From Clostridium mediterraneense (GTDB lineage: Bacteria; Bacillota; Clostridia; Clostridiales; Clostridiaceae): a stretch of DNA of 64,000 nt. The DNA lies in NCBI RefSeq assembly GCF_900091705.1, contig NZ_LT594785.1:311640-375639 (forward strand), written 5' to 3'. Shown here in pieces: positions 35,366 through 40,949 of this stretch (within the stretch, counting starts at the first letter, position 1; every line of letters starts with the position of its first letter). Under the pieces are notes generated by a model. The model was not told where the DNA came from. It saw nothing but the letters and a program-made list of their open reading frames with translations, and did not search any database. The position numbers and the translations under genes were made by a program.

Positions 35366-35396
35366 TATATAGTAGAGTAATAAGTTTTAAATTGGG

Positions 35397-38300
35397 GTGA
35401 TTAACATAGAAACTAGTAGTTATTATTATAGGGATTTCATAAGTGGAGTACCTCAAGAAACTATAGATAATGTTATAAAGTTTATTTATGAGCATCAGGG
35501 GAGTAATGATTATATAGAAATTGTAGTTTTATTTGGGAATAATGCAGCTTTAGTTGCAGAGTCTGCTAAAGAAATAGGTGCAAAATTTGAAGACCTTGGA
35601 ATGGGCTATGGAATTATAGGTATAAAGGGAAGTGACTTTAGAAAGTTATCACAATTAAAAGGTGTTCAATATGCAGAGTTTCCTAAAATATTTACAACCA
35701 CAGGTATACAAAGTAATACTGCAAGTTGTATTCCAAGAGTTTGGGAGCAATACAATCTTAGTGGAAAAGGAGTTTTAATTGGATTTATTGATACTGGAAT
35801 AGATTATACTCATCCTTCTTTTCTTGATTCTACTGGTAAAACAAGAATTGAATATATATATGATATTTATACAGCAACATCATATAATAAAGCGCAAATA
35901 GATCAAGCTCTTGCTTCACCTGATCCACAATCAATAGTTCCAGAAGAAGACCTTATAGGACATGGGACAGCAGTAGCATCTGTTGCTGCCGGAGGTGGTA
36001 ATCTTGGAAGAAATAATTATGGTGTTGCTTATGAAGCTTCAATAGCTATGGTTAAAGTTACAGGTAAAGGTACTTTTACATCTATTTTAAGTACACAAAT
36101 TATGAGGGGACTTAAATTTCTTATTGATAAAAGTAATGAATCAAATATGCCTCTTGTTGTAAATATAAGTCTTAGTTCGAATGATGGGGCTCATAATGGA
36201 AGTAGTCTTATAGAAAAATATATTCAAGAATTTTCTCAGATTCAAAGAGTAGCTATTGTTATTGCAGCAGGAAATGAAGGTGAAGCAGGACATCACTATA
36301 GTTCTAATTTAGAACTTAGTAATGAAATTTTTTTCAATATAGCAGGTGGCGAAACAAATATGATTTTACAATTATATAAGCCACCACTATCTGAGATAAC
36401 TATAGAAGTTGTTGCACCTTCAGGACAAACAACTGGAAGAGTGTCAATTAATGAAGGTGCAAAAAGACTAAATCTTGGTGCTCAAAGATGTGTTATTTAT
36501 AATAGTGGTCCTAAACCTTTTGATGCTGCTGGTGAAATAAGTATTAATATAATTCCAAATGGAAATACCATTGATCCGGGAGAATGGCAGGTAAATATAA
36601 AAAGAATTAATCAATATGATGGTATTTTTGATATATGGTTACCTATTGCTGAGGCTTTAAGCCCTGATACAAAATTTTTGCAACCAGATCCTTTTAATAC
36701 ATTAGGAATTCCAGCAACTGTTGATGGGGTTATTTCTGTTGGAAGTTATGATTTTACTGCAAATAATTATTCTGCTTTTTCAGGTAGAGGAATACACCGA
36801 GTAGGAAGTATTAGAAAACCAGATTTGTTAGCTCCAGGTCAAAATATTATGGCAGCTAATGTAGGAGGTGGTTTTGCTCCGGAGACAGGAACTTCAGTTG
36901 CAGCACCTCAAGTAGCTGGTATGTGTGCACTTATTTTACAATGGGGAATTGTAAAAAATAATGATGCTTTTGTTTTTGGAGAAAGATTAAAATATTATTT
37001 AATTAAAGGAGCTAAAAGAACTAGAATGGATGTAGTTTATCCTACAAGAGAATCAGGGTATGGATTTATGTGTGGTGCAGATAGTATGAGTCTTTTAAGT
37101 AATGATACAAGTACTGGTGGTTTGTTATTAACTTCTGGGCAGGATGAAGAAGAGGAAAAATTAGTTTTTGCACCAAGTGGAGATAATAATGAATTAATTG
37201 ATATGAAAGATAAAAGAGCTACTCCTATACCAGGAAATATAACTAATCAAGATTTAAGTAATGTGAATATGTCTGTAAATTCTGATCCCATTTTAAATCC
37301 TAGTGGAAATCCAGATGTAAATCAAAGTTTAAATATAAGTCCAAATCAAGGAAGTATTAATTCTCCAGCTGGTGTAGTAACTAATGGAAATGCTATAAAT
37401 CAAGTCACAGGTGTTACTCAAAATATAAATCAAATAACACAATCTACTGGAGTAACTGGCTTAAATGTGGTAACAGGAGCAACTGGAGTAACTAATGAAA
37501 ATATTAATACAAATCAAGCCACAGGTGTTACTCAAAATTTAAATCAAATAACACAAATTACAGGAATAACTGGTCCAACTATGATAACAGGAGTTACTGG
37601 AGCAACATCTGTAACAGGAACAACTGGAGAAACTATATTTTCAGCAACCCAAGGATATGTAGATCTTAATATAGATAGTCAAACTGTTTATGGTAAAACA
37701 ACTAAGCTACATTATTTAACCACTGGATTTGTTGATTTTTTAGTTCAGTATAAAGGTGATTTAATTGCAGCTGTAGAAAAAATAAATGATAAGGCTTCAG
37801 CTTTTGCACTTGATAGAAATTATGCAATTGTTTCTGTAAGAGTTGAAGATTATAGACAGATTCTTTTATCAATTGATGAAATAGTTTATATAGATAGTGG
37901 TGGGGTTTATACTTTAGAAGCTGTAAGTCCGGCAGAAGCATCCCAAGCTAATACATTTCATTATAATCCATATTTAAATCTTACAGGTTATGGTACAATT
38001 ATCGGAATTATTGATACAGGAATTGATTATTTAAATAAAGATTTTATAAAAGCTGATAATACAACTAATATAATTAGAATATGGGATCAAGGAATTAGTA
38101 CTGGACCAACACCTAGCACTATATTTTTTGGAACTGAATATAAAGAACAGGATATAAATAGGGCATTAAATGAAAGTTTAAATGGAGGAGACCCATATTC
38201 AATAGTACCAAGTAGAGATATAAATGGACATGGAACTGCTATGGCAGGACTTATTGCAGGAAGAGGTAATAATGCAGAGCAAGGTATAGCTTTTGATGCA

Positions 38301-39560
38301 TCTATAGCTATGGTTAAATTACACACAGCTAATGAGCAGTATAGAAATTATTTTGGAACTAATGGTAAAACAGAATATCAATATAGAAATACAGATATTC
38401 TTCTTGGAATAAAATATTTATCAGACCTTGCTAAACAATTAGTAAAACCAATGGTAATTTTTATACCACTTGGAACTACAATAGGAGCACATGATGGAAG
38501 TTCAGTTATAGAAAGGTATATAGATGACATTTCACAAGATAGTGGACTTATTGTAGTTACATCAACAGGCAATCAAGGTCTTGCAGAAAATCATACAGCT
38601 GGAAAAATAGATAAACAAGGTGAAACAAAGAGTATAGAACTTTATGTAGATACAAATCAAACAGATTTACTTATGAATATATATATTACAAGGCCAGATA
38701 GAATGGGACTTTCAATTGTTTCTCCAGCTGGTGAAGCAGTTGGAAATATAACTCCTAAAAAGAGAGAGGGAACTGTAGTAAATTTTGTTCTTGAAGGAAG
38801 TAGTATGAATGTTATGTTTATTGAGCCAGATGAGCATACAGGTGATGAAATAATAGTAGTAAGGGCAACAAATCTTAGACCAGGAATATGGAATTTTGGA
38901 TTAATAGGTGAATATATAGTTAATGGTACCTATAATGCATGGCTTGTTCAAAGAGAACTTTTAGAACCAAAAACTAGATTTTTAAGTCCTACACAATATA
39001 CAACCTTGACACTTCCAGCAACATCATCTTATATAATTCCTGTTGCTTATTATAATCAAAATATTAATGCTACTGTTTCACAATCAGGAAGAGGTTATAC
39101 AAGAGATGGTAGAATATCGCCAATTATTGCAGCAGGTGGGGTAGATGCAATTGTAACAGCTCCTAATAATAGAAAAACAATGATGACAGGAGGAAGTATT
39201 GCAGGTGCAGTTATTTCAGGATGTTGTTGTCAACTTCTTCAATGGGGGATAGTAAATAAAAATGATGTAACTATGTATGCAAGAAAAGTACAAACTTATC
39301 TTATGAGAGGAACAGATCAAAGAATTGGAGATATATATCCAAATGAACAATGGGGATTTGGGGTTATTAATATGCAAAAGCTATTTGATAATATAAAAGG
39401 TTCTGTTTTATCAAATGATAAGAGTATAGGAACTAGTCCGGTTGGTTTTAGAGAAGATGAAAGAATATATATAGATACTGAAGAAGCAGGAATTATAGCT
39501 GTAAATAATAAAAATGAATTTAATATAGGAAGTTTATATATTAGGAATCCTATTATTTAA
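35397..39560 (+). CDS. Fused double Csp-type subtilisin germination protease
   Basis: 1,387 residues: prodomain (about 1-105), S8 protease I (about 110-570), Asn/Thr/Gly-rich linker (about 571-750), second prodomain-like part (about 751-850), S8 domain II (about 855-1340). Domain I has Asp132 (IDTGIDY), His189 (IGHGTA), oxyanion Asn293 (AAGNEG) and Ser500 (GTSVAAPQ). Domain II has Asp873, His945, Asn1059 and Ser1267, but the serine motif is altered (GGSIAGAV). Each domain carries the large insert typical of Csp proteases, which cleave pro-SleC in germinating spores; sleC follows. C. perfringens has separate cspA/B/C and C. difficile a CspBA fusion. There is no ATG start: GTG 35397 overlaps the ribosome site GGGGTGA, while ATA 35406 is ideally spaced. 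Confidence 0.9.
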   Translation: MINIETSSYYYRDFISGVPQETIDNVIKFIYEHQGSNDYIEIVVLFGNNAALVAESAKEIGAKFEDLGMGYGIIGIKGSDFRKLSQLKGVQYAEFPKIFTTTGIQSNTASCIPRVWEQYNLSGKGVLIGFIDTGIDYTHPSFLDSTGKTRIEYIYDIYTATSYNKAQIDQALASPDPQSIVPEEDLIGHGTAVASVAAGGGNLGRNNYGVAYEASIAMVKVTGKGTFTSILSTQIMRGLKFLIDKSNESNMPLVVNISLSSNDGAHNGSSLIEKYIQEFSQIQRVAIVIAAGNEGEAGHHYSSNLELSNEIFFNIAGGETNMILQLYKPPLSEITIEVVAPSGQTTGRVSINEGAKRLNLGAQRCVIYNSGPKPFDAAGEISINIIPNGNTIDPGEWQVNIKRINQYDGIFDIWLPIAEALSPDTKFLQPDPFNTLGIPATVDGVISVGSYDFTANNYSAFSGRGIHRVGSIRKPDLLAPGQNIMAANVGGGFAPETGTSVAAPQVAGMCALILQWGIVKNNDAFVFGERLKYYLIKGAKRTRMDVVYPTRESGYGFMCGADSMSLLSNDTSTGGLLLTSGQDEEEEKLVFAPSGDNNELIDMKDKRATPIPGNITNQDLSNVNMSVNSDPILNPSGNPDVNQSLNISPNQGSINSPAGVVTNGNAINQVTGVTQNINQITQSTGVTGLNVVTGATGVTNENINTNQATGVTQNLNQITQITGITGPTMITGVTGATSVTGTTGETIFSATQGYVDLNIDSQTVYGKTTKLHYLTTGFVDFLVQYKGDLIAAVEKINDKASAFALDRNYAIVSVRVEDYRQILLSIDEIVYIDSGGVYTLEAVSPAEASQANTFHYNPYLNLTGYGTIIGIIDTGIDYLNKDFIKADNTTNIIRIWDQGISTGPTPSTIFFGTEYKEQDINRALNESLNGGDPYSIVPSRDINGHGTAMAGLIAGRGNNAEQGIAFDASIAMVKLHTANEQYRNYFGTNGKTEYQYRNTDILLGIKYLSDLAKQLVKPMVIFIPLGTTIGAHDGSSVIERYIDDISQDSGLIVVTSTGNQGLAENHTAGKIDKQGETKSIELYVDTNQTDLLMNIYITRPDRMGLSIVSPAGEAVGNITPKKREGTVVNFVLEGSSMNVMFIEPDEHTGDEIIVVRATNLRPGIWNFGLIGEYIVNGTYNAWLVQRELLEPKTRFLSPTQYTTLTLPATSSYIIPVAYYNQNINATVSQSGRGYTRDGRISPIIAAGGVDAIVTAPNNRKTMMTGGSIAGAVISGCCCQLLQWGIVNKNDVTMYARKVQTYLMRGTDQRIGDIYPNEQWGFGVINMQKLFDNIKGSVLSNDKSIGTSPVGFREDERIYIDTEEAGIIAVNNKNEFNIGSLYIRNPII
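37398..37631 (+). repeat. Duplicated 117-bp unit encoding a collagen-like linker
   Basis: Two tandem copies of about 39 codons (residues 668-706 and 707-745) share NQ-TGVTQN-NQITQ followed by TG-V/I-TG triplets. Read as Gly-X-Thr, stretches such as GVTGATSVTGTTG resemble the collagen-like repeats of exosporium proteins. The DNA copies are about 80 percent alike, with several silent and a few amino-acid differences. Confidence 0.8.
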
Positions 39561-39620: not shown

Positions 39621-40949
39621 GTGAGTGGAATAGGAAGATTAAGATGTCAATGTTTTAGTGGTAGTACAATACAGCCTGTAGGTAAGGCGAAAGTAACAGT
39701 AACTGATCCTCAAACTAAAAAAGAACAGGTTTTATATACAAATACTGTGGGAACTACAGAAGAAATAGAGCTTGAAACACCAGATATGTCAGCATCACAA
39801 AGTCCAGGTAATGTACCTTATTATTTATATGATGTAAAGGTAGAAAGAGAAGGATTCAATCCATTACAAATAAATGGAGCTCAAGTTTACCCAAATAGAG
39901 TTGCTATACAAAAATGTAATTTAGAGTTTTTAGATAATACTAGAGCTACTACTGTTAATGTTATAGATATATTAGCAAATACACTAGTAGGAAACTTTCC
40001 AGCTAAAATACCTGAAGACCCAATAAAACCTTTACCAAAGCCATCAGGCACTGTTGTTCTTCCAGAACCTGTAGTACCTCAATTTGTAGTAGTTCATGCT
40101 GGAACTCCTGATAATACAAGTGCTCCGAATTATACACTGCCTTATGCAGAGTATATAAAAAATGTTGCATCATCAGAAATATTTTCAACATGGCCAAATT
40201 CTACTATAAGGGCAAACATATATTGTATAATTTCATTTACACTTAATAGGATATATACTGAATGGTATAGAGGTAAGGGAAAGAATTTTGATATAACAAA
40301 TTCAACAGCTTATGACCAAGCCTTTGTTTATGGTAGAACTATTTATGATAATATAAGTGCTGTTGTTGATCAAATTTTCTCAACATTTGTTCAAAGACCA
40401 AATGAAAAACAACCACTATTAACTCAATATTGCAATGGAACTACAGTTACATGTCCTGATTGGCTTAGTCAATGGGGAAGTAAATATCTTGGAGACCAAG
40501 GAAATTCACCATATGAAATTTTAACTCATTATTTTGGATATGATCTTAATTTGGTCACAGCTCCTAAGGTTCAAGGTATACCACAATCTTTTCCAGGATA
40601 TATCTTAAAGCTTGGATATAATAATATTTATGTTAGAAGACTACAAGAGTACTTAAATTCAATTTCAAATAACTATCCTTTAATTCAAAAAGTTGCAGTT
40701 GATGGTAATTTTGGACCTGCAACAGCTAATGCAGTTAAAACTTATCAACAAATATTTAATTTACCTCAAACTGGAGAAGTTGATTATGCAACTTGGTATT
40801 CAATTTCAAACACTTATGTTGCTGTAAATAAATTAGCAGAACTTACTAGATCAATGTTAACAGATAATTATGATGAAGATGAAAACGGAATATTCTGTCC
40901 ACCAGTAATAAATGATTTAGTTAAGAATGTACCAATAGTAAAATATTAA
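39621..40949 (+). CDS. sleC: Spore cortex-lytic enzyme SleC, prepro-form
   Basis: 442 residues, close to the roughly 430-440 of known SleC proteins. The N-terminal part (about 1-120) is a carboxypeptidase-regulatory-like beta domain with TVTDPQTKKEQVLYTNT; a central catalytic region follows (about 165-310, SSEIFSTWPNSTIRANIYC); the C-terminus (about 335-400) is a peptidoglycan-binding domain with VRRLQEYLNSISNNYP and VDGNFGPATANAVKTYQ. SleC is stored as an inactive precursor in the spore and cut by Csp proteases to degrade cortex peptidoglycan on germination. The GTG start follows AAAGGAGAC. Directly downstream of the fused csp gene. Confidence 0.9.
   Translation: MSGIGRLRCQCFSGSTIQPVGKAKVTVTDPQTKKEQVLYTNTVGTTEEIELETPDMSASQSPGNVPYYLYDVKVEREGFNPLQINGAQVYPNRVAIQKCNLEFLDNTRATTVNVIDILANTLVGNFPAKIPEDPIKPLPKPSGTVVLPEPVVPQFVVVHAGTPDNTSAPNYTLPYAEYIKNVASSEIFSTWPNSTIRANIYCIISFTLNRIYTEWYRGKGKNFDITNSTAYDQAFVYGRTIYDNISAVVDQIFSTFVQRPNEKQPLLTQYCNGTTVTCPDWLSQWGSKYLGDQGNSPYEILTHYFGYDLNLVTAPKVQGIPQSFPGYILKLGYNNIYVRRLQEYLNSISNNYPLIQKVAVDGNFGPATANAVKTYQQIFNLPQTGEVDYATWYSISNTYVAVNKLAELTRSMLTDNYDEDENGIFCPPVINDLVKNVPIVKY

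Follow-up and report, generated by a model that had tools for sequence, protein, structure and literature searches.

An ordinary CspB-CspA/C-type fusion beside sleC in Clostridium mediterraneense and a probable near-cognate AUA start shared by cspB genes of two clostridial families

The stretch of Clostridium mediterraneense DNA analyzed here (64,000 nucleotides, hereafter the window) carries on its forward strand a single open frame of 1,387 codons, at positions 35397-39560, that encodes two subtilase domains of the S8 family. The first-pass annotation had described two such domains in one frame, each with the catalytic Asp/His/Ser and an oxyanion Asn, and this description held when the frame was checked for breaks, as neither a stop codon nor a frameshift was found between the two domains in ORF 35397-39560. 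The protein length of 1,387 residues given in that annotation counts from a GTG at 35397; the frame is indeed open from there, but this GTG is probably not the start, and initiation at the likely start codon, an ATA at 35406, would give a cspB-cspX fusion gene at 35406-39560 (plus strand) with a product of 1,384 residues. Residue numbers below are counted from the GTG. As had also been noted, sleC is the neighbor of the fused gene. It begins 60 nt downstream (39621-40949, plus strand), encodes the pro-form of a cortex lytic enzyme with a PG_binding_1 domain, the predicted substrate of CspB, and is preceded by the Shine-Dalgarno (SD) sequence AAGGAG before its GTG at 39621. SleC homologues lie 3' of cspB in most loci.

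Domain 1 was identified as CspB by its prodomain, its jelly-roll subtilase fold, its intact triad and its grouping in the CspB tree. The prodomain (PF18425; 35448-35687, plus strand, residues 18-97) scored 53.1 bits in Pfam against a cut-off of 25, and the subtilase and jelly-roll domain (35706-37103, plus strand, residues 105-569) aligned over its full length with C. perfringens CspB (4i0w, chain B) at 614.8 bits. The latter is the closest characterized CspB and belongs to a sister clade, where sleC likewise lies downstream. The triad of domain 1 is D132/H189/S500 with the oxyanion N293, and these four residues (DHNS) were present in all 93 aligned CspB rows. With sleC adjacent at the locus, domain 1 is predicted to cleave pro-SleC. 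The NCBIfam model for CspBA of the C. difficile type (NF040809) matched the window protein with 677.6 bits, below its curated cut-off of 1250 bits.

In the genome of the window, S8 matches were limited to the two halves of this frame and one unrelated S8 protein of 393 residues (C5:179262). The latter was considered as a third csp gene and rejected, as it leaves too little room for a jelly roll and had no match in the full-length Csp search. The S8 and Csp searches of this genome found no third csp gene, which adds to the earlier statement that only two domains lie at the locus. The genome does hold GerA, GerC and permease genes of germinant receptors, which rules out that such receptors are missing, as they are in C. 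difficile. Two YabG-family genes were also observed (G000:C5:759098-759952 and 245001-245807).

Domain 2 (37695-39431, plus strand) has its own prodomain and the triad D873/H945/S1267 with N1059, and matched the structures of C. difficile CspA and CspC with 230-243 bits. Its AlphaFold model (pLDDT 84.9, pTM 0.89) had CspC 6mw4 (TM 0.86/0.90) and CspA 9pr9 as its best PDB matches. These comparisons identify domain 2 as a subtilase of the CspA/C type whose triad is intact, and the two halves belong to different Csp types, a result that the first-pass annotation had named as support for its reading. In trees of second domains it is assignable to neither CspA nor CspC specifically, because the C. 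difficile CspA and CspC pair together outside all Clostridiaceae domains of this type (support 97); the names CspA and CspC, as read from this topology, reflect separate duplications.

The serine motif of domain 2, GGSIAGAV, was confirmed to be altered, but the alteration does not amount to decay. Amongst 119 CspA/C-type domains, the serine is mostly preceded by Ser, Ala or Gly and is not followed by Pro, while the catalytic Ser itself is kept in 112 of them; the changed motif is thus, by alignment, a signature of CspA/C-type domains as a whole. Occasional Ser-to-Cys replacements at the catalytic position were seen in L082:5676, in L050:5018 and in the fourth domains of L070 and L087. Domain 2 cannot be classed as a pseudoprotease of the C. 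difficile kind, since its triad residues are present, whereas the four catalytic positions are DQNA in C. difficile CspA and DTNG in CspC. C. difficile thus has a pseudoprotease as its second domain and another encoded by a separate cspC, in contrast to the window, with its intact second triad and no third csp gene.

These observations raise the possibility that SleC processing is shared between two active proteases, domain 2 being one of them rather than a regulator. Asp, His, Asn and Ser were kept in all 60 fused second domains tested, and other Clostridiaceae Csps have been predicted to be active (PMC12880746). However, the Pro and Thr beside the nucleophile are gone across the CspA/C type, some relatives of this type carry Ser-to-Cys changes or have lost the triad, C. 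difficile CspA and CspC are pseudoproteases that regulate germination, and conserved residues alone are no proof of activity for domain 2. We regard a second active protease as a serious reading, but somewhat less likely than not.

The two domains are joined by a linker of 196 residues (37107-37694, plus strand) that is rich in Asn, Thr and Gly, contains only 4 Lys/Arg, and includes 11 imperfect Gly-x-Thr triplets; these are too few and too broken for a true collagen helix, which was ruled out. It is the longest linker seen amongst fusions of CspB with one CspA/C-type domain (B-X), most relatives having 0-46 residues. Linker sequences are not conserved, those of the relatives being wholly different, and the nearest relative has a Lys/Glu-rich linker in place of the Gly-x-Thr type.

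To place the fusion, csp loci were gathered from relatives and named genomes, with families inferred by similarity. Amongst 91 distinct Clostridiaceae cspB genes, 57 are B-X fusions, 4 are longer chains that start with B-X, and another 6 have sleC as their fusion partner; the remaining 24 stand alone, a few of them cut by contig ends. The fusion to a second Csp domain, present in 61 of the 91, is accordingly widespread in the family as judged from these loci, and frames of 1,083-1,150 codons likewise hold the majority of the cspB genes of the C. difficile family. Fusions with two intact triads were published in 2013 for C. butyricum, C. botulinum E3, C. acetobutylicum and Ca. Arthromitus (PMC3567191); as in the window, CspB comes first and a CspA/C-type domain second, and the window protein differs from them in its 196-residue Gly/Thr/Asn-rich linker. 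Rarity of the fusion is not supported, as most cspB genes of Clostridiaceae carry it, it is frequent in the C. difficile family as well, and it has been known since 2013. According to a later paper (PMC6636752), Csp proteins of Clostridiaceae are made only as separate chains; the fused loci contradict that statement, although they add no new kind of protein.

Other architectures were encountered in the same set. In six loci, CspB and SleC share a single open frame of 1,065-1,081 codons, which joins the protease to its own zymogen substrate (L132:7438-10632, L097, L116, L095, L107 and L147); these come from C. beijerinckii, C. chromiireducens and relatives. Other loci hold three or four Csp domains in one chain, either B-X-X-X of up to 2,451 residues or X-X-X of about 1,780 residues; they were found in C. 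paridis, C. intestinale, C. gasigenes and relatives (L087:7441-14769, L089:7435-14469, L070:3878-11230, L150:7462-13032 and L083:11169-16508).

In the CspB tree, the window gene falls in a clade with full support (100%) together with two metagenome species (G005 and G006), one of which is fused while the other is broken by a contig end within the linker. The sister group of the window clade (97) is an unfused clade that holds C. perfringens CspB 4i0w, and the surrounding branches are mostly fused. The first-pass annotation had proposed that the fusion may have arisen independently, here in the window's small clade. Separate genes do occur in the named relatives nearest to it (C. perfringens type, C. 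tarantellae and Sarcina ventriculi), but the fused state is found in the next sister clade and on almost every deeper branch, and the ancestor shared with the unfused C. perfringens-type clade requires 11 changes if fused and 12 if unfused, a margin of one change. Trees of domain 2, in which the window clade joins separate CspA/C-type (X) genes of its genus (99), agree with a fused ancestor. Independent origin is consequently unlikely, and the fusion is probably ancestral in the family and was lost in the relatives of C. perfringens.

The start of the gene required separate consideration. The SD sequence GGGGTGATT (35394-35402, plus strand) pairs with the 16S rRNA tail better than that of any other of the window's 46 ORFs (pairing score 13.1), and the ATA at 35406-35408, at a spacing of 8, is the sole in-frame codon at SD spacing. 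The GTG at 35397, which ORF finders call as the start, lies inside GGGGTGATT. Both G005 and the C. perfringens-type relatives have ATG at the position that corresponds to the ATA.

The same pattern extends over the cspB genes. Under a fixed scoring scheme, which took the fraction of genes having a canonical start at a good SD, such a start was found for 33% of 90 cspB genes, compared to 98.6% for sleC (71 genes) and 85% for other ORFs of 150 codons or more (700 ORFs). When the one in-frame codon lying 7-9 nt past the best SD was taken from each of 91 cspB genes, it was ATA in 47, while ATA makes up 6.2% of codons. A curated tally of the 91 Clostridiaceae genes, in which about 29 start calls were corrected by hand, gave 50 ATA, 8 ACG, 17 ATG, 6 TTG, 5 GTG, 3 ATT/ATC and 2 ambiguous cases. 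Were the ATA a plain Ile codon, drift to ATT would be expected; in the conserved Ile columns of these genes, the share of ATA has a median of 59% and does not exceed 82%. Counted from a conserved Pro, ATA, ACG, ATG, GTG and TTG interchange at slot -14, the window has ATA where C. perfringens-type genes have ATG at slot -15, and slot -22 shows 6 ATA and 3 ATG. The start states are clustered on the tree, with 19 changes compared to at least 29 in shuffles. An association between fusion and a non-canonical start was not significant in these data, the independent pairs being too few. Additional CspX genes of expanded clusters also show an SD followed by ATA with no good canonical start (L083:5448 and 11169, L086:5321, L087:5604 and L150:13022).

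The pattern is clearer still in the C. difficile family. There, the slot was taken as the codon before [NDE]-Tyr-Glu-Val-x-Val-Lys-Tyr, and amongst 30 cspB genes it holds 16 ATA, 6 TTG, 5 GTG, 2 ATG and 1 ATC, preceded by strong SDs such as GGAGGTGATT. Three of these genes have an in-frame TAA immediately 5' of the ATA. The sequence GAGGTGATTATAATAAATTATGA is present in 8 of 8 genomes of the C. difficile-type genus, one of which encodes a prodomain region identical over 119 residues to that of the C. difficile CspB in the PDB. C. difficile CspBA thus resembles the window gene in being a CspB-first fusion with an SD and ATA at the same slot in its genus. The C. perfringens-type relatives examined differ from the window in having separate csp genes with ATG starts, and distant cspB genes that appear to be from Lachnospiraceae, a family name assigned by similarity, have ATG.

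The alternative is initiation at the annotated in-frame GTG 35397, which would leave the ATA three codons further on as a plain Ile codon. GTG is one of the regular start codons, and both the window and many relatives have it in frame; C. difficile is one of these relatives, and its structure constructs start MIIINYEL, at the GTG in the SD. Against this, GTG 35397 is part of the SD and has none of its own (upstream pairing score 4.6 compared to 13.1), and sister genes carry ATG, TTG or GTG exactly at the ATA slot. Moreover, 20 Clostridiaceae cspB genes have no in-frame ATG, GTG or TTG between the upstream stop and ten codons beyond the slot, and in these, as in 5 of 30 genes of the second family, the GTG position lacks a canonical codon, yet the SD with ATA or ACG is kept. 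We consider the GTG improbable as the start, which is probably ATA 35406. The set as a whole points to AUA initiation through the absence of a usable AUG, GUG or UUG, a properly spaced SD and conservation across species, while the window gene itself has the GTG within its SD.

AUA starts under extended SDs have been described for infC, ccpN and citZ of S. aureus, where such starts gave about 10-30% of the AUG yield in reporters (PMC13009471). The AUA/AUU starts with extended SDs of infC, ccpN and cvfC1 (PMC13009471) share with the csp genes a conserved near-cognate start and a strong SD, and there the yield is reduced. The Staphylococcus starts come from ribosome profiling, whereas the clostridial csp starts are inferred from sequence, with ACG as an added variant. 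Literature searches returned no report of an AUA start for csp genes. We consider it likely that the cspB genes of two families, C. difficile CspBA amongst them, are translated from a conserved near-cognate AUA or ACG that limits the dose of the SleC-activating protease, in which case the annotated N-terminus of C. difficile CspBA would be three residues too long. A weak start is not essential everywhere, because about 30% of cspB genes start with ATG, GTG or TTG.

The following sequence of events is proposed. The AUA at 35406 under its strong SD would give weak translation initiation of cspB-cspX, and since a weak non-AUG start is conserved in most cspB genes of the two families, the protease may be kept scarce relative to its zymogen substrate; this scarcity is suggested because AUA starts lower the yield in S. 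aureus reporters, by analogy. sleC genes, mostly with AUG and an SD, would be strongly translated, leaving the activator below the level of the zymogen. By analogy with C. difficile work (PMC12880746), CspB would remove its own prodomain, a YabG-type protease may cut the two domains apart within or close to the linker while the spore is assembled, and domain 2 may dimerize and control CspB, which upon germination would cleave pro-SleC. Altogether, the window gene is an ordinary clostridial CspB-CspA/C fusion, predicted to act on the product of the adjacent sleC, and the combined account of a fusion gene, an AUA start, a scarce protease and C. difficile-like processing is considered probable.

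An AUA start would account for the mismatch between the position of the SD and the starts used by gene finders and in published constructs. If true, it would be an unusually deep and widely conserved non-AUG start in bacteria, in a gene that sets the moment at which dormancy of the spore ends, and the weak start offers a simple, testable hypothesis for how the trigger protease may be kept scarce relative to SleC.
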